Source: Butyrivibrio fibrisolvens
Lineage (GTDB): Bacteria; Bacillota; Clostridia; Lachnospirales; Lachnospiraceae
Direction of reading: 5' to 3'
Assembly (NCBI RefSeq): GCF_023206215.1
Contig: NZ_CP065800.1
Span: forward strand, 868,001-932,000
Length of the DNA stretch: 64,000 nt
Numbering within the stretch: position 1 is the first letter of the stretch; each line of letters starts with the position of its first letter. The notes beneath the pieces are model-generated. The model worked only from the letters and a program-made list of their open reading frames with translations, did no database searches and was not told where the DNA came from. Below are positions 5,879 to 43,071 of this stretch, piece by piece. The position numbers were made by a program, and so were the translations under genes.

Positions 5879-7771
5879 ATGAGAATCAGTAAAGAAGTAG
5901 AGATAAAAATATATCATGACAATAAGTCCGTGAAAGTACTTCATGCCCCAAGAGGCAAGAAGCTTTTGGATCTTCTAAGAGACAATGATATTCGTATAAG
6001 TTGTCCTTGTTCGGGATCCGGAACCTGTGGTAAATGCAAAGTACAGTTTCTTAATGATGGAGTTCGTATTACTACAGCTGATCTAAAGCATATACCAAAA
6101 GAAGACTTAGAAAGAGGATATCGTCTTGCCTGCATGAGCATTCTCACAGAAGATGCCAGGATAGCTATCCAAGACTATAACGAGGACAATATCGTATGTC
6201 CTGAAAGCACATCATCTGAAAATGAAGTGATCAAAGTCGCCAATCCTGATATCGCTGTATCACCGGATATTAGAGCATATTCGGAAGGCTTAGATAATAT
6301 CAGTAAGACGGACTTTTTCTATGGAATAGGTATAGATCTTGGAACTACAACTATAGCCGTATCACTTATAAAGCTTCCGGATTCTGAAATCGAAAGTAGA
6401 GGTGTTAATACAGATGTAAGTAAGCTGAACCCAAATCGGTGCCGCGAGCTTCACCAATTTGAACCATTAGCCACTTTCTTTGCCCGTGACATGAGGTTAA
6501 AAAATGGAAATTCATCAATATCTGCACCCGGATCAGGATTTACAGAAGATTCCTGGTCCCACAATATCGTACATGTTGTAACAGGAACCAATCATCAGAG
6601 AAGCTACGGAACAGACGTAATATCAAGGATCAAGGCATCTAAAGAAAAGGGTAAAAGACTAAAGGAGTTAGTGGTAAGCGATATAGAAGATCTCATACAA
6701 AAGCTTCTGACACAGACAGGATGCAGTTATTCCAGAATAAAAAGAATAGCAATTGCAGGAAATACTACAATGCTGCACCTTCTAAGAGGATATAATTGTG
6801 AGAGTCTTGGAGTATATCCCTATACACCTGTAAATCTTGATATAGAAGATCTGAAAGCAGGAGATATTTTTCCAAAACTGGAAGATAATATTTCCAATAT
6901 ACCTGTGACTATCCTTCCGGGTTTTAGCGCCTTTGTGGGAGCAGACATATTATCAGGTCTTTATGCTACAAGACCATGGAAGATGGATCATGAATATATT
7001 TTTCTGGATCTTGGTACCAACGGAGAGATGGCTGCAGGTTTTGGGGACAAGATATATGTAACATCTACGGCAGCAGGGCCTGTATTTGAAGGTAATGGCA
7101 TACGTTACGGAATACCGGGTATCCCAGGCGCTATAAAAGGGGCAGAGTTTGCAGGCGGGAAGCTCAAAGTCACAACAATAGAAGACGCACCTCCTATAGG
7201 AATCTGTGGAACGGGCGTACTTGAGATAATAAGTGCTCTTGTAAGAGAGGGACTCGTGGATGAGACTGGGCTTTTGTCTGAAGAGTATTTTGATAATGGC
7301 TACCCTGTCAGCAGGGATGAAGACGGAATAGGTATCGTCATAACCCAAAACGATATAAGACAGGTGCAGATGGCCAAGGCAGCAGTTAATGTAGGTCTTG
7401 ATCTTTTGTATGAAAAAATAAGATCTCTTGATGATCAATTCCCTTCTTCTAAAGAAAGATTAGCAAGGAATAAAGATAAAGCAGGTAAGCCTTATGTTAT
7501 AATATCAGGCGGATTTGGAGCAGGTATTTCTTTTGACAGGATCAAAGAACTTAAGATGTTCCCGGCAAGTATCACTGATAATGGTGATAACATATATATA
7601 GCCGGCAATACATCGCTTCTTGGCACAGCGAGGTACTTGTGCATAGCATCTTTATATGGTACAAAGATAGCTCGGGAAGAATTATGTATGATACAAAGGA
7701 TGGCAAAAGAGATAGAGCTGTCGCAAGATGACAGCTTTAGCGACAGATATTATGAAGCGATGAACTTTTAA
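5879..7771 (+). CDS. [2Fe-2S] ferredoxin / ASKHA-domain protein (RACo-like, DUF4445), with a repeat-derived insertion
   Basis: 630 residues. The N-terminal 90 residues are a plant-type [2Fe-2S] ferredoxin with CPCSGSGTCGKC and a fourth Cys in RLACMS. The rest is the DUF4445/ASKHA ATPase fold: GIGIDLGTTTIAVSLI near residue 147, IAIAGNTTMLHLL, IFLDLGTNGEM and the closing ISGGFGAG. Family members reductively reactivate corrinoid proteins or related metalloenzymes. Between the first ASKHA strands and RSYGTDVISRI there is an extra segment of about 55 residues; codons 185-209 are a translated copy of an interspersed repeat (6431-6506). No close ribosome binding site is seen. The domain call is firm; the partner corrinoid protein is not in the window. 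Confidence 0.85.
   Translation: MRISKEVEIKIYHDNKSVKVLHAPRGKKLLDLLRDNDIRISCPCSGSGTCGKCKVQFLNDGVRITTADLKHIPKEDLERGYRLACMSILTEDARIAIQDYNEDNIVCPESTSSENEVIKVANPDIAVSPDIRAYSEGLDNISKTDFFYGIGIDLGTTTIAVSLIKLPDSEIESRGVNTDVSKLNPNRCRELHQFEPLATFFARDMRLKNGNSSISAPGSGFTEDSWSHNIVHVVTGTNHQRSYGTDVISRIKASKEKGKRLKELVVSDIEDLIQKLLTQTGCSYSRIKRIAIAGNTTMLHLLRGYNCESLGVYPYTPVNLDIEDLKAGDIFPKLEDNISNIPVTILPGFSAFVGADILSGLYATRPWKMDHEYIFLDLGTNGEMAAGFGDKIYVTSTAAGPVFEGNGIRYGIPGIPGAIKGAEFAGGKLKVTTIEDAPPIGICGTGVLEIISALVREGLVDETGLLSEEYFDNGYPVSRDEDGIGIVITQNDIRQVQMAKAAVNVGLDLLYEKIRSLDDQFPSSKERLARNKDKAGKPYVIISGGFGAGISFDRIKELKMFPASITDNGDNIYIAGNTSLLGTARYLCIASLYGTKIAREELCMIQRMAKEIELSQDDSFSDRYYEAMNF
6431..6506 (+). repeat. 75-bp GAGGTTA-ATG repeat, copy A (inside a CDS)
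   Basis: Matches 23335-23409 almost base for base: CCAAATYGGTGYCGCGAGC, then TTCACCAATTTGAACCATTAGC, ending ACAYGAGGTTAAAAAATG. It is read in frame as part of the ASKHA protein (residues NPNRCRELHQFEPLATFFAR). Confidence 0.8.
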
Positions 7772-23293: not shown

Positions 23294-23624
23294 CAAGTGA
23301 TATGAGAAAGTTTGAAAGTGTTCCACTTTCAAACCCAAATTGGTGTCGCGAGCGTCACCAATTTGAACCATTAGCTGCTCGCTTTGCTCGCGACACGAGG
23401 TTAAAAATGAACCTGAGGGACGGAGGCAATGTCATTTAGATAAGCCCGTCCCTAGGGATCATCATATATAGGAAAACGCAGAAAATGTATGTGGCTTCAA
23501 ACTTAGAAATCATCAAAGTTTGAAGCTGTTTTGTTTGTATGAAAAAAATATTTTTAGTATTGCCCGCACATTCTGTATTATTAATTCGTTATACATTACA
23601 GAGGGAGGTGCAAGACAACAATCC
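23294..23624. other. Repeat-bearing intergenic region
   Basis: This 331-base gap holds repeat copy B (23310-23409), an 8-bp hairpin AGGGACGG / CCGTCCCT (23416-23453) and the sigma-gene leader. A tiny ORF MNLRDGGNVI starts at the repeat's terminal ATG (23407) but has no support as a gene. Confidence 0.5.
23310..23409 (+). repeat. 75-bp GAGGTTA-ATG repeat, copy B, with leading hairpin
   Basis: Leading hairpin GTTTGAAAGT / ACTTTCAAAC (23310-23334), then the core. GTGTCGCGAGC (from 23343) can pair either with the perfect reverse complement GCTCGCGACAC (about 23386-23396) or, as AATTGGTG, with CACCAATT next to it: two mutually exclusive folds. The element ends CGAGGTTAAAAATG. Confidence 0.8.
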
Positions 23625-33553: not shown

Positions 33554-33608
33554 CGGCTGTATTGACTTATTATTTGAGCTGAATAAGTCTATAGAGCCGT
33601 CATTTCTT
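33554..33608 (+). terminator. Terminator after the cyclophilin gene
   Basis: An 18-bp stem with two mismatches (CGGCTGTATTGACTTATT and AATAAGTCTATAGAGCCG), followed by TCATTTCTTT. Confidence 0.65.
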
Positions 33609-33632
33609 TATCCCGACCAATATAGGGAGTAA

Positions 33633-33733
33633 GTTTGAAAATGCTTTATTTTCAAACACGAATTGGTGTCGCGAGCTCCACCAATATCGGACTATCAGTC
33701 ACTCGTCTTACTCGCGACATGAGATTATTTATG
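33633..33733 (+). repeat. 75-bp GAGGTTA-ATG repeat, copy C, at the Rgg start
   Basis: Leading hairpin GTTTGAAAAT / ATTTTCAAAC (33633-33657), then AATTGGTGTCGCGAGC and CTCGCGACATGAGATTATTT ending in ATG 33731, the start of the Rgg-type gene. The 32 extra codons upstream of that ATG are repeat sequence, not protein. Confidence 0.75.
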
Positions 33734-34558
33734 GATATAGGTGAGAAATTTAAAAAAATACGCAAACAAAGAAAATTAACTATACAGCAGCTAAGCGAAA
33801 TAGCGGGTTCAAAAGCAAGTATATCAGCCTTTGAGAATGGTAAATCTTCATTATCTACCGATGTTTTATTATCGTTGGCTTCTGAAATGTGTTTGAATTA
33901 TGACGAAATTCTTGATATGCAAGAGAATAATATAAAAATAATTGCTCTTGATCATAAGATTCAGAAGGCATTAGCCACAAAAGATGAAGAACAGTTTCGT
34001 GAGTGCATCGCCTCAATATGGGAAAAGTATCATAAATCAGGCAATTATCAATATTGGATGTTAGCAACCAGTTGTGAAGTCTTAGGAGAAGATGTCTTTG
34101 GCTGGACGGCTTCGGAAAATCTTGTCGAATCGCTTAGAGATTACTTTTTTTCAATTGAAGTATGGACTATGTTTGATATTGCTCAATTAGGTTTAATAGT
34201 TAATAAATTGAATAATGAAAGCATTTATCTATTGGCCAAAGAAATACATAAACAGCTACATTCTCCCCTTCGTAATGGTTATGATAGAGTCGGAGTCGAT
34301 ACCATATTAGAAATGATAACTATTTTATTAAAACGTAAAGATAAGAATGATTCTAACAAGCTTATAGAATTATTAGAGAAAAGCGCTATGCCATTTTATT
34401 TTGCATATCAAACAGCAAGATTAAAGTATCTAAGAAGTATCTGGAACTGTCTTTTTACTAATGATGACTTGGCTATATCTAAAAAGGAAGCAATATTATC
34501 AGCGGTTGAAGTTATTTTATCCTCCGAAATAGCAGAAAAATGGCAATCAGATTTCTAA
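33731..34558 (+). CDS. Rgg/GadR/MutR-family transcriptional regulator
   Basis: 275 residues from ATG 33731. The upstream 32 codons of the open frame are repeat copy C. An N-terminal XRE helix-turn-helix (FKKIRKQRKLTIQQLSEIAGSKASISAFENGKSSLS) is followed by an all-helical C-terminal region like the Rgg peptide-binding domain. Rgg proteins sense imported short peptides in quorum sensing. It faces the ABC exporter gene and the 25-residue CGFGC peptide (tail to tail), so these three may form one signalling or peptide-production unit. The Rgg call rests on layout and sequence style. Confidence 0.75.
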   Translation: MDIGEKFKKIRKQRKLTIQQLSEIAGSKASISAFENGKSSLSTDVLLSLASEMCLNYDEILDMQENNIKIIALDHKIQKALATKDEEQFRECIASIWEKYHKSGNYQYWMLATSCEVLGEDVFGWTASENLVESLRDYFFSIEVWTMFDIAQLGLIVNKLNNESIYLLAKEIHKQLHSPLRNGYDRVGVDTILEMITILLKRKDKNDSNKLIELLEKSAMPFYFAYQTARLKYLRSIWNCLFTNDDLAISKKEAILSAVEVILSSEIAEKWQSDF

Positions 34559-34602
34559 TTGCCATTTCTTTCGCCAATACCCCAATTACCAACATTACCT
34601 AT

Positions 34603-36285
34603 CTACGATACGTTATAAAGAGAATAGAAATATTCTTTCTTACTCATCAGTTCATCAAAGGTTCCTTGCTCAAATATGGAACCATTCTTAATGACAAGGA
34701 TATGATCAAACTTAGTTAGCAACTTCTCATCCAATTTATGCGTTATAATTAGTTTTGTTGAATCCTTTATATTAAGAATTGCGGTCATTACATCATGAGA
34801 TGTTTGATTGTCAAGTGCTGCAGTGGCTTCATCAGCAACAAAGAGCTTACTTTGCTTTAATATACTCCGGGCAATTGATATACGCTGACGCTCTCCACCT
34901 GAAAGGTTACACCCGCAAGCTCCACAATGATAATTAATTCCTTTTTCATTTACAATTGATCTTAATCCGGACTGGTCTATTGCCCAATCTATTAAATCCT
35001 TATCGAATTTTTTAAAAAGAGTGATATTATCAAGGATGGTTCCATCAAAGATAAATACATTTTGTTGAATGATGGAAACTTGTTCAGAAATAGAATCTAA
35101 ATTATAATTCTTTAGGTCTGTGTCGTCATATAGTATTTCACCACTATAATTATCCATCATCCCGGCAATCAAACTAACCAAAGTGGTTTTTCCACTTCCT
35201 GATTCACCAACTATAGCGTATGATTCGCCATTATTGAGTTTAAGATTGATATTATTCAAAATGGTATTGTCTTCATATCCAAAAGATACATTATTTAGGC
35301 TAATGGCATCAGGGAACTCCTTTAATACTTCTCCAGAAGCAAGTAAATTATTTTGAAGTTCTTTTTCCATTTTATCAATTAGTGAAGAGGCTGCTTTACG
35401 TGTAGACAAAAGCTGTGGAACACTCATTATAGGTTTCATAAAATTACCAAGTAAACTTGTAAAACTAACAAGAATACCTACAGTTAAATTGTTTCCACGT
35501 AAGATAAAATATGCACCAAATATAAGAACCCCCAATTGTGGAAGAGTACCTCCTAATGAAAGAACCGTCTGAATTCTACCAATCTCACAATTCTTATTAA
35601 ATTTAATTCTCTCTAATTTACGATCCCTATCGCAAAATAAACCTGTAACTTCGTGTTCTGCCTGAAAGCTTTTAATGACACTAAATCCATTTAACAGATC
35701 CTGAATAAAAGCCATGAAGTTTGAGTTTTCTAAAGACACGGCTTTTTCTTGTTCTGATAATCTGTTTCCTAAGATAGACGATAGTAATAAAGGAATAGCA
35801 AGAAATACAATAGTAACGATTGATAATAATGGACTGTAATATAACATGAGCCCCAACGCTCCGAAGAAGAGTACTATATTAGCAACTAATGAAGCAGTCC
35901 CTTTTATGTAATTGTTCTCGATTACAGCAACATCGTTAGTCATTCCGGATAGATATGTGCTGGTTTTTTCGTTATAAAAAGTTCTGGGAGCTTTTTTTAT
36001 TAGTTCTTTATAAAGAGTATCTTTGTAAGTTGTTAAAGATCTTTTAACAACCAAAGCCTCAAAATAATACAAAGAAATAGATATAAGACCTATAAATGCT
36101 ATAAGCAATGAGCATCTAAATACAACTAATTTAAAAGATGATAAACTACTAGATGATGCTACATCAATAATATTCTTTAAAAGTGCAGCTATTACGAGTG
36201 ATAATAGACTATCTATCACTACTAATAATACATATATGCTGTATGTGATTCTATTATTCTTATATAAACACTTTTTTAAATTCAT
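34603..36285 (-). CDS. ABC exporter, fused membrane and ATPase domains
   Basis: 560 residues: six membrane helices (residues 15-300) fused to an ATPase with Walker A GESGSGKTTLVSLI, signature NLSGGERQRISIAR, Walker B LFVADEATAALD and H-loop ITHKLDE. It has no C39 protease domain. GGAGGT lies 8 bases before the ATG. It is 70 bases downstream of the 25-residue CGFGC peptide gene with a hairpin between them, so it most likely exports that peptide or a processed form. The region just before the signature contains CGACGC, unusual in this family. Confidence 0.88.
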   Translation of the reverse strand: MNLKKCLYKNNRITYSIYVLLVVIDSLLSLVIAALLKNIIDVASSSSLSSFKLVVFRCSLLIAFIGLISISLYYFEALVVKRSLTTYKDTLYKELIKKAPRTFYNEKTSTYLSGMTNDVAVIENNYIKGTASLVANIVLFFGALGLMLYYSPLLSIVTIVFLAIPLLLSSILGNRLSEQEKAVSLENSNFMAFIQDLLNGFSVIKSFQAEHEVTGLFCDRDRKLERIKFNKNCEIGRIQTVLSLGGTLPQLGVLIFGAYFILRGNNLTVGILVSFTSLLGNFMKPIMSVPQLLSTRKAASSLIDKMEKELQNNLLASGEVLKEFPDAISLNNVSFGYEDNTILNNINLKLNNGESYAIVGESGSGKTTLVSLIAGMMDNYSGEILYDDTDLKNYNLDSISEQVSIIQQNVFIFDGTILDNITLFKKFDKDLIDWAIDQSGLRSIVNEKGINYHCGACGCNLSGGERQRISIARSILKQSKLFVADEATAALDNQTSHDVMTAILNIKDSTKLIITHKLDEKLLTKFDHILVIKNGSIFEQGTFDELMSKKEYFYSLYNVS

Positions 36286-36307
36286 AGTATACCTCCATCA
36301 AGAAATA

Positions 36308-36345
36308 GCAAGTTCAATAACCGTAATATTAGCTATTGAACTTGC
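36308..36345 (-). terminator. Attenuator hairpin between peptide and exporter genes
   Basis: A perfect 12-bp stem (GCAAGTTCAATA / TATTGAACTTGC) with a 14-base loop, lying between the CGFGC peptide stop and the exporter start. No T-run, so probably partial termination or mRNA processing that favours high peptide output. Confidence 0.6.
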
Positions 36346-36355
36346 AACTTTCCAT

Positions 36356-36433
36356 TTAGCAACCAAAACCACAAATGATGTTCTTGAGAGCTTCAAATGA
36401 TCTTATAACAGAAGAATTTGTTTTCACTTTCAT
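36356..36433 (-). CDS. Short 25-residue peptide ending CGFGC (candidate RiPP or signal precursor)
   Basis: MKVKTNSSVIRSFEALKNII then CGFGC, 25 residues. A GGGGG ribosome binding site lies 8 bases before the ATG. Directly downstream are a hairpin and a gene for a fused ABC exporter, and the Rgg-type regulator faces the exporter. The two C-terminal cysteines spaced by GFG could form a ring (disulfide or thioether). I do not recognise the family. No modification enzyme is visible next to it. Real as a gene by context; role inferred. Confidence 0.6.
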   Translation of the reverse strand: MKVKTNSSVIRSFEALKNIICGFGC

Positions 36434-36499
36434 TAAGTTTTCCCCCTTTCGTTTGGCATATATAGAATATACAACTAATCAGCTTAAACTTTATGAAAG

Positions 36500-36513
36500 T
36501 TCGGAAATCCGAA
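36500..36513. promoter_or_regulatory. Palindromic candidate operator
   Basis: TTCGGA-AA-TCCGAA, a 14-bp palindrome about 65 bases upstream of the peptide ATG (minus strand), beyond a TATATT-like -10 region. A candidate Rgg binding site; inferred. Confidence 0.3.
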
Positions 36514-36676
36514 AAAAGACACAGGGAAAAAGAAAAAACGCTTATAATTGGAGATTTTTGTTTTTGGAAGATGATGTATTGCAGGACAAACAGGAATAAT
36601 ACTTAATAGGAAGAAAAAAGCTGAAAGATATAAGCAGTGCATATACTTATTCGCTCCTTGCTAAAATCCATAACTA

Positions 36677-36717: not shown

Positions 36718-36723
36718 TATAAT
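36718..36723 (+). promoter_or_regulatory. -10 box of the thi operon
   Basis: TATAAT, about 5-7 bases before the riboswitch begins. A -35 match is poor, so only the -10 is listed. Confidence 0.45.
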
Positions 36724-36727
36724 ACAT

Positions 36728-36816
36728 GACAAGGGGAGCTGGTTACCGGCTGAGAGGTGTGAAGAACACGACCCTGTACCTGATTTGGATAATGCCAACG
36801 TAGGAATCGTCGACAA
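36728..36816 (+). ncRNA. TPP riboswitch (THI element)
   Basis: Shows the conserved THI-box parts in order: GGGGAGC, CTGAGAG, then ACCCTGTACCTGATTTGGAT and AATGCCAACGTAGGAA. It binds thiamin pyrophosphate and, with the terminator at 36849, turns off the downstream thi operon when TPP is high. A 20-base perfect palindrome (ACAAGTAGCA / TGCTACTTGT, 36813-36832) follows and could be the switching helix. Confidence 0.95.
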
Positions 36817-36848
36817 GTAGCATGCTACTTGTAACTATAGCAATACTT

Positions 36849-41702: not shown

Positions 41703-42569
41703 CTACAATTTAAACCATTGCAAATCTATTTTATCATTAGAAAGAACAGATTCTTTCCAGGATAGGTAATCATTTATATCTTTATATAGTAAGCAATCAT
41801 TTTGATTAACTAAATATAATATCTTATCACTGTCATGGTCATATTCAAAAGGAAATACCCCCTCATATTCTGGACAAGTGTTAATATCTAGTTCTTCTAC
41901 GCTTGCTATTTCAACATATTTTCCTTCCTTAAGATCAAACTCATATAATTCATAAGGCCAAAAATCATCATTATACATATATTGTGAATGTGGCACGTTT
42001 GCATAAATTATTCCATTGGAATAGAACTCTAATCCAATGTAGTAGTCAAATAATAGCTCAAAACCGCTTTGTTGGTCATAAACAAATATATAATCAGCAG
42101 AATCACTGTTATTAGTTCCACCTATTCGTATAAGTAGTTCGTTTTTGGAATCACCATTAATATCATATATGGAGATATAGTCTTCATAAGCTCGTTTCTT
42201 TTGCGTTTTGAAATCTGATTCATTATTGGAATAACAATATTGTCCATTGGGAAGATAGCCGGTAGCTTCAAGAATTACAATACATTCGTAATACTTGCGA
42301 TTTATAGTAGGATCATCTGAAAAAATTGGCAAATCGCTTTCTGTAAATGAAACAGATTTTTCTAAGTCATGGATGTCTATGTCCTCATTTGTAGAAGGCT
42401 GTATACTAGCATTGGTTGTATATGCGGCTGATGAACTATCGGAATATGAAATGGCACTATACTCATAAGAACTGTTTTCGTTACTCGTCGTTGGTGAGTC
42501 TGTTTTTGTACATGCATCTAAAGTTATTATAATTAGTAAAAGTATACTGATAATAAATAACTTTTTCAT
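41703..42569 (-). CDS. Hypothetical lipoprotein
   Basis: 288 residues from ATG 42569 (GGAGGT site 6 bases upstream). A lipoprotein signal with lipobox TLDAC, then a Ser/Thr/Tyr-rich linker of about 55 residues. The remainder contains SIYDINGDSKNELLIRI, a calcium-binding-like repeat of the kind seen in VCBS/FG-GAP proteins. I recognise no family. It stands alone in the minus direction between the thiamin operon and a sigma-factor pseudogene pair. Confidence 0.75.
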   Translation of the reverse strand: MKKLFIISILLLIIITLDACTKTDSPTTSNENSSYEYSAISYSDSSSAAYTTNASIQPSTNEDIDIHDLEKSVSFTESDLPIFSDDPTINRKYYECIVILEATGYLPNGQYCYSNNESDFKTQKKRAYEDYISIYDINGDSKNELLIRIGGTNNSDSADYIFVYDQQSGFELLFDYYIGLEFYSNGIIYANVPHSQYMYNDDFWPYELYEFDLKEGKYVEIASVEELDINTCPEYEGVFPFEYDHDSDKILYLVNQNDCLLYKDINDYLSWKESVLSNDKIDLQWFKL

Positions 42570-43071
42570 CAAGCACCTCCAAAGTTGTTATTTTACATAG
42601 TATAGCATATGTTTGGGTTTACATTTTTGGGAAATGAAGATGCAGACAGTACGAATACAACATAGGCTCCTTCTAGATTAGAGTTTTTATGAAAAGATCC
42701 CTAAAAAGGGAGGATGCCAGGTAAGTCCCCACTTACCTGGCATTATTATGAAAAAGTTTTTATTAGTATTGCTTCATCTGACAATATTAGTGTATCGCAT
42801 CAGTGTGACCAATAAATGATTTGGCGTAAAGAAACGTAAAACAAATTGTTAACAAAATATTAAGGTAATCAGTAGAAGACATTTTCCATCATCGTTAGTT
42901 GATATACTTTGAAAAGAATACAATTAACTATTTGGACTAAAATAAAAAAGTTTTTTGATACGATGTGTAAGATTTAATATGCTTTCCTGTCTATATAAGT
43001 GTAAGCTTACAAAAAATATGACTTTTTAATGGAATCTAACAAGTATTTCTATGTAAGAATAAGGAGAAAGT
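42570..43071. other. Intergenic region
   Basis: A 502-base region with no supported gene. It holds the minus-strand promoter of the lipoprotein gene near 42590-42625, a strong hairpin at 42714-42743, and the leader of the frameshifted sigma gene. Otherwise AT-rich. Confidence 0.5.
42714..42743. terminator. Isolated strong hairpin
   Basis: A perfect 13-bp stem ATGCCAGGTAAGT / ACTTACCTGGCAT with CCCC loop, followed by TATTATG and later T-rich sequence. No gene directly upstream on the plus strand, so it might end a small RNA or read-through from the left. Confidence 0.55.

Follow-up and report, generated by a model that had tools for sequence, protein, structure and literature searches.

We analysed a stretch of 64,000 nucleotides (nt) from Butyrivibrio fibrisolvens (contig NZ_CP065800.1, positions 868,001 to 932,000), which we call the window, and within it a block of three genes encoding a 25-residue peptide, an ATP-binding cassette (ABC) exporter and an Rgg-family regulator. 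The block is a precursor unit of the type known from RaS-RiPPs, that is, ribosomally synthesized and post-translationally modified peptides (RiPPs) altered by radical S-adenosylmethionine (SAM) enzymes. What appears to be new here is the occurrence of such a unit in Lachnospiraceae, with the enzyme present in a relative from another genus of the family (genome G258) and absent in the window genome. On balance, we favour the reading that the unit was acquired laterally, is without a radical SAM maturase of its own and makes a product that is linear or closed by a disulfide. The observations behind this reading are the gene set itself, the homologous peptide and enzyme of G258, and the lack of a close relative of that enzyme in the window genome. 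The elements of the block are listed below.

33731..34558, plus strand: Rgg-family regulator, 275 residues including Met (Rgg_C, TIGR01716, PDB sequence match, fold)
34558..34602, minus strand: possible 15-codon radical SAM vestige IGNVGNWGIGERNGN, weak (10.1 bits, E 0.042 with the A2 enzyme profile described below)
34603..36285, minus strand: ABC exporter, 560 residues, membrane and ATPase domains fused, without peptidase (domain matches)
36308..36345, minus strand: terminator-like hairpin directly 3' of the peptide (15 pairs, 8-nt loop, z -7.7)
36356..36433, minus strand: 25-residue precursor-like peptide (ATG open reading frame, Shine-Dalgarno sequence, ungapped homologue in G258)
36500..36513, no strand: inverted repeat TTCGGA-AA-TCCGAA, possible regulator site, located 67 bp 5' of the peptide's start codon

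The peptide and its homologue in G258

The open reading frame (ORF) of the peptide starts with ATG, has 25 codons (36433-36356, minus strand) and encodes MKVKTNSSVIRSFEALKNIICGFGC; it is preceded by the G-rich Shine-Dalgarno sequence AAAGGGGGAAAACTTA. The original prediction, made from the letters of the window, of a 25-codon ORF with a G-rich ribosome-binding site and a product ending CGFGC is therefore correct. An N-x-x-C motif lies near the C-terminus (N18-I-I-C21) and C25 is the last residue. Of the 232 ATG ORFs of 20-35 residues in the window, only this one has a CxxxC ending.

Between the Rgg and exporter homologues of G258 we found a 25-residue ORF, MKIKENTSISTLGVEIKNLFCGLIC, together with a hairpin and a gene for a radical SAM enzyme. 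The ORF starts with TTG, has the site AAAGGAGG and carries N18-L-F-C21 within its 25 residues. The two peptides align without gaps and share 10 of 25 residues (M1, K2, K4, N6, S8, K17, N18, C21, G22 and C25). When the window peptide was compared to 7346 short ORFs of the fetched loci, the G258 frame scored 52 (55 with its TTG start) and the next ORF 18; with the G258 peptide as query against the same set, the window peptide scored 55 and the next ORF 23. A chance ORF was rejected as an explanation, since the G258 score is far above that of the next ORF and shuffling the G258 peptide 200,000 times never gave an alignment as good as the observed one. As far as sequence comparison can tell, the peptide ORF is thus a real conserved peptide gene with a second copy in G258.

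The neighbours of the two peptides are also alike, which supports our reading of the block. The Rgg proteins are 31% identical, the exporters are 39% identical over 567 aligned columns, and in both loci a hairpin follows the peptide, the one in G258 being in the same place but a different hairpin (z -6.7). The G258 Rgg passes TIGR01716 (56.6 vs a cut-off of 36.9). The G258 enzyme is of the SPASM type (TIGR04085, 39.0 bits vs a cut-off of 27), and among the 25 NCBIfam rows listed it reaches no equivalog cut-off. Among the 120 listed of 2082 proteins, the relatives that carry a name include those of Streptococcus equi subsp. zooepidemicus (49% identical), S. thermophilus (46%), S. suis (40-41%) and S. 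marmotae (38%), as well as those of Lactovum and Lactococcus (41%). A record identical to the enzyme comes from a metagenome-assembled genome and is named Acetatifactor sp., a genus belonging to Lachnospiraceae.

The peptide is rare. In the genus, 7 of 79 genomes gave a match at E 1 or better, of which one, that of the window itself, is a true match and the others are weak (E 0.231-0.91); in the one weak-match neighbourhood that was opened (G009), the match was rejected as a chance match within a long gene. A peptide profile that includes G258, itself outside the order sample, matched 16 of 392 genomes of the order including the window genome, and none of the 7 opened among the 15 others is a member. 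A protein search with the peptide frame gave no candidate, short ORFs being frequently unpredicted, and a degenerate peptide pattern had 0 matches in viral contigs. No NCBIfam model, AgrD-type models included, matched the peptide at E 1, where the HMMER filters are weak for 25 residues. A lack of conservation of the short ORF or its Cys residues beside homologous exporters had been named in the original prediction as an outcome that would refute it. Conservation was seen in one relative, G258, and not in the others opened: no such short ORF was found beside the exporter homologues of 13 further loci (two partly in view) and 7 more.

Regulator, exporter and control elements

The regulator had been described as Rgg-type, and two curated models agree that it is a true Rgg: Rgg_C (Pfam PF21259, 45.4 bits vs a cut-off of 27) and TIGR01716 (51.0 vs 36.9), with HTH_19 matching as well (38.8 vs 30.2). 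The start is the ATG at 33731, and the analyses were run on the sequence from 33734, without Met. By sequence, the regulator matches Rgg2 of Streptococcus dysgalactiae in the PDB (5w4m, E 1.6e-11). By fold, it also matches Rgg2 (4yv6, E 1.8e-7, template modelling score 0.57), with a middling model built from two sequences (mean predicted local distance difference test 67, predicted template modelling score 0.50). The regulator and the exporter converge tail to tail (33731-34558, plus strand, vs 36285-34603, minus strand), as had been proposed. There is no evident ribosome-binding site at the rgg start. The sequence before rgg (33600-33733) is part of a dispersed repeat of about 100 bp that ends just short of the rgg start; copies 74-77% identical are found at 23304-23403 and 6428-6499 of the window, and two in the locus L059 of a radical SAM gene discussed below.

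Within the family, Rgg was found at E 1e-15 or better in 2 of 397 genomes, which are the window genome and G258. In the genus, the Rgg profile matched 4 of 79 genomes with one strong match, that of the window gene. The four remaining matches (E 1e-11 to 1e-12), one of which is in G000, show neither a peptide nor an exporter of this kind in their visible surroundings. For this reason a second Rgg-like gene was rejected as partner. When family genomes were sampled once more using the Rgg profile, 1 of 135 matched, again G258; every row listed had been searched before, so this adds little.

The Pfam matches of the exporter are to ABC_membrane and ABC_tran, with no peptidase domain among them; it is therefore not of the peptidase-containing double-glycine type, and the expected lack of a protease domain is borne out. 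In a tree of 56 rows, both exporters fall in a clade of 4 rows with support 99/97. The G258 branch is long (1.89), so its place in the clade is unsure. The closest protein relative (P0124, 58% identical) is from metagenomic contigs. A search of genome contigs gave 5 loci, all distant (24-35% identity), and among more than 5000 plasmid records none is close. As read from translations, exporter homologues adjoin radical SAM genes in two loci of the same genus (L003, L005), and in six loci of the same family (L040-L044, L047) they directly follow XRE regulators of about 360 residues.

A hairpin after the peptide was predicted and is present (36345-36308, -23.8 kcal/mol), though it was given as 12 bp and has 15 pairs with a loop of 8 nt. 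We rejected the explanation that it is a mere end-of-operon terminator, because the exporter lies downstream with its own ribosome-binding site; the hairpin is likely an attenuator between peptide and exporter. The palindrome TTCGGA-AA-TCCGAA upstream of the peptide is where it was said to be (36500-36513). However, the window has 26 inverted repeats of the same 6-2-6 shape, so the repeat alone is weak evidence. It is the sole exact copy in the genome, and its near-copies are in no excess over the control (5 vs 7 for the reversed pattern), so that no regulon was seen across the genome. It is a possible place where an activator could bind. A 52-residue ORF with an AAGGAG site (36484-36642, minus strand) lies upstream of the peptide and overlaps the inverted repeat; it may be due to chance.

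From these elements we infer control by the Rgg, export of the peptide by the exporter, the chemistry of the product and continued use of the unmodified peptide. The Rgg together with a sensed peptide ligand would switch on a promoter upstream of 36433, and the hairpin would lower read-through into the exporter and leave the peptide in excess over it. The ABC exporter would then release the peptide from the cell, either whole or as a C-terminal fragment. In G258 the peptide would first meet the radical SAM/SPASM enzyme, with an expected Cys21-Asn18 link. In the window genome this linking step would be absent, leaving a linear product or one closed solely by a Cys21-Cys25 disulfide.

The missing maturase and competing explanations

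The window genome is 99.94% complete in two contigs. With the G258 enzyme as query, it yields two radical SAM genes with E values of 1e-5 or lower. The best one (G000:C1:957489-958685) is 30% identical (E 4.9e-34) and lies about 53 kb from the peptide; the other is a SCIFF maturase (curated model 745.8 bits vs 425). At the window locus itself no SPASM radical SAM enzyme was found, the matches there being of just 10-23 residues with E 0.03 or worse. Since both genome matches are otherwise assigned, one to its own precursor and one as the SCIFF maturase, the peptide appears to be without a cognate maturase, and by sequence the window genome has no close relative of the G258 enzyme. The peptide could still be modified in trans, for example by the enzyme at 957489-958685, which is the genome's best match to that of G258. 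However, this enzyme has its own upstream precursor-like ORF, MQILEMGFTDEEILSQVGAIADNNGTCGNNGICG, without evident likeness to the window peptide, and the exporter by it is apparently split in two ORFs. We regard modification in trans as quite improbable. In the locus of this second RiPP-like set (L059:7335-10339), we also observed XRE-type regulators; the precursor-like ORF is 34 residues long and directly upstream of the radical SAM gene, and the two exporter ORFs are of 386 and 94 residues.

In order to look for remains of an enzyme gene, a profile of 18 enzymes of the G258 radical SAM family (A2) was searched over all six frames of the window. The best match is the 15 codons IGNVGNWGIGERNGN directly after the exporter stop and in frame, which align where the enzymes have NVGDWGxGxR, and the next match has 5.4 bits. 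In 300 shuffles of the locus the score of this match was never reached (best 7.5). Real DNA amounting to 908 kb holds 11 other rows below 25 bits with the same or a higher score; most of them are in viral loci picked for radical SAM genes, and L048, L044 and L028 (the latter two from one genome) were not so picked. The 15 codons are a weak hint of a former enzyme gene, since lost.

Such a loss could also mean that the whole locus is decaying, with the maturase gone by deletion and the genes of the peptide, the exporter and Rgg as leftovers that no longer have a function. The possible vestige and the presence of the peptide in just 1 of 79 genus genomes would both agree with decay, and there is a precedent in the ryptide operon, described as reduced to the transporter in 264 of 265 S. 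thermophilus strains (PMC12445099; for this and all other papers cited, our statements refer to the accessible part of the text). However, the three frames are open, the peptide retains its ribosome-binding site and hairpin, and its conservation to G258 (40%) matches that of the exporter and the Rgg. The vestige is also weak and lies after the exporter, compared to an enzyme gene before the exporter in G258, and this order weighs against reading it as a trace of loss. Decay is in our view somewhat unlikely. We also consider it unlikely, as a more specific form of our reading, that the crosslinking enzyme was dropped with the peptide, exporter and Rgg kept, and that the bare or disulfide-closed peptide is exported and sensed by the Rgg.

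Rgg proteins sense short peptides. A further alternative, following the earlier proposal of a small peptide production or quorum-sensing unit, is a new quorum-sensing class unrelated to RiPPs, with the peptide as the Rgg ligand and nothing else. In addition to the sensing ability of the family, no gene for a short hydrophobic peptide (SHP) was seen here with one simple pattern, and the CGx, CGG and VSA subfamilies of RaS-RiPPs have rgg with shp not identified (PMC13361665). The homologue in G258 is positioned as a radical SAM substrate, however, and N18, C21, G22 and leader residues are common to both peptides. We find this alternative highly improbable.

For the reading of a laterally acquired unit without its own maturase, the low G+C content of rgg (32.0%) and of the exporter gene (31.8%) in this AT-rich block, compared to 40.6% for the window, and the presence of Rgg in only two of the family genomes count in favour. 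Several points weigh against it. The homologous set has two members, and these are arranged differently, with Rgg pointing away from the peptide in G258 but convergent with the exporter in the window. A promoter scan showed no sigma-70-like promoter upstream of the peptide, and one simple sequence pattern over the short ORFs of the window gave no SHP-like ORF. The tie to RaS-RiPP precursors discussed below is by a printed motif and enzyme kinship and not by precursor alignment, and the subfamily is ambiguous, both peptides containing C-G, so that CGx is equally possible. Finally, the peptide is known as a sequence, and its translation, export and sensing are predicted.

Searches of mobile elements and of the phylum for the enzyme gave little. 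In viral contigs no radical SAM gene was confirmed with the query P0001, and the A2 profile gave 44 loci, the best 38% identical over 187 residues; among the short upstream ORFs in viral loci, those with C-terminal Cys pairs comprised 2 rows, neither similar to the peptide. Plasmids and phages gave 17 and 10 radical SAM records, respectively, all of them non-streptococcal and with no identity above 35%. The radical SAM profile matched 1 of 398 genomes of the phylum, GC-rich and with no similar precursor seen.

Relation to known systems and meaning

RaS-RiPPs have short Rgg-linked precursors modified by radical SAM enzymes, and sixteen subfamilies named after their motifs, NxxC and CGx included, are described (PMC13361665). 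In NxxC, the enzyme NxxcB forms a bond between a Cys sulfur and the beta carbon of an upstream Asn (PMC13361665), and the thioether of NxxcA is between Cys23 and Asn20 (PMC8326336). The window peptide resembles NxxcA of Streptococcus orisratti in being short with N-x-x-C near its C-terminus (Asn18-Cys21 compared to Asn20-Cys23) and in having an Rgg-type regulator and an exporter, with the SPASM radical SAM enzyme additionally present in G258. It differs in its Lachnospiraceae host, in a genome without the maturase and in that no SHP was seen by one pattern. With CGx it shares C-G in the core and an rgg without identified shp, as well as the same difference in maturase. According to the original prediction, no described family is known to have this ending. 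This is not supported, as the G258 homologue precedes a streptococcal-like radical SAM/SPASM enzyme and both peptides have the NxxC motif as it is printed for that subfamily. From the peptide-enzyme context of G258 and the shared Asn18-x-x-Cys21-Gly, we assign the peptide to the RaS-RiPP precursors, of either the NxxC or the CGx type; at the level of the subfamily this is a lead.

The streptosactin (GGG) locus also has an Rgg-linked small precursor and a protease-less exporter, and the window exporter scores 180.8 bits against NF050039 (GggC). This is far under the cut-off of 750, and the window has neither the GGG motif nor a maturase. With Rgg/SHP quorum sensing (Rgg2, Rgg3), the block shares its regulator family, as two curated models and the sequence and fold matches to Rgg2 indicate. 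It differs in that no SHP-like ORF was seen by the simple pattern and that the RiPP-like peptide is the sole well-supported small ORF.

The block is flanked by a cyclophilin-like gene (as read from its translation) on one side and a thiamine pyrophosphate (TPP) riboswitch (36722-36824) on the other, which heads thiamine genes as read from translations. A perfect palindrome of 20 bp (36813-36832) follows the riboswitch (36722-36832 with the palindrome, plus strand), upstream of what appears to be a gene of fused thiamine enzymes. A further AT-rich gene (41703-42572, minus strand, 30.8% G+C) is lipoprotein-like and on the opposite strand to most of its neighbours.

In the accessible texts on RaS-RiPPs and Rgg in Lachnospiraceae, on ranthipeptides with Rgg and on Butyrivibrio radical SAM RiPPs, no such locus was found (PMC10885120, PMC13289728 and PMC11002830 included). 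SHP/Rgg operons are said to be conserved only in Streptococcus in a 2024 review (PMC11002830). The Hungate1000 paper, which gives 2 RaS-RiPPs by its mining rule with hosts unnamed in the accessible text, may already include RaS-RiPPs from bacteria other than streptococci (PMC13289728). That rule requires a radical SAM gene together with Rgg (PF04055 and TIGR01716; PMC13289728) and would therefore miss enzyme-less loci such as that of the window.

The block extends the pairing of Rgg with a precursor-like peptide to Lachnospiraceae, together with a radical SAM enzyme in a relative. If the crosslinking enzyme was indeed dropped with the other genes kept in use, the block would be a maturase-free offshoot of RaS-RiPPs whose precursor carries signal content of its own. 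Two such loci, one containing the enzyme and the other lacking it, would make it possible to ask directly whether the crosslink is needed for export and sensing of such a precursor.

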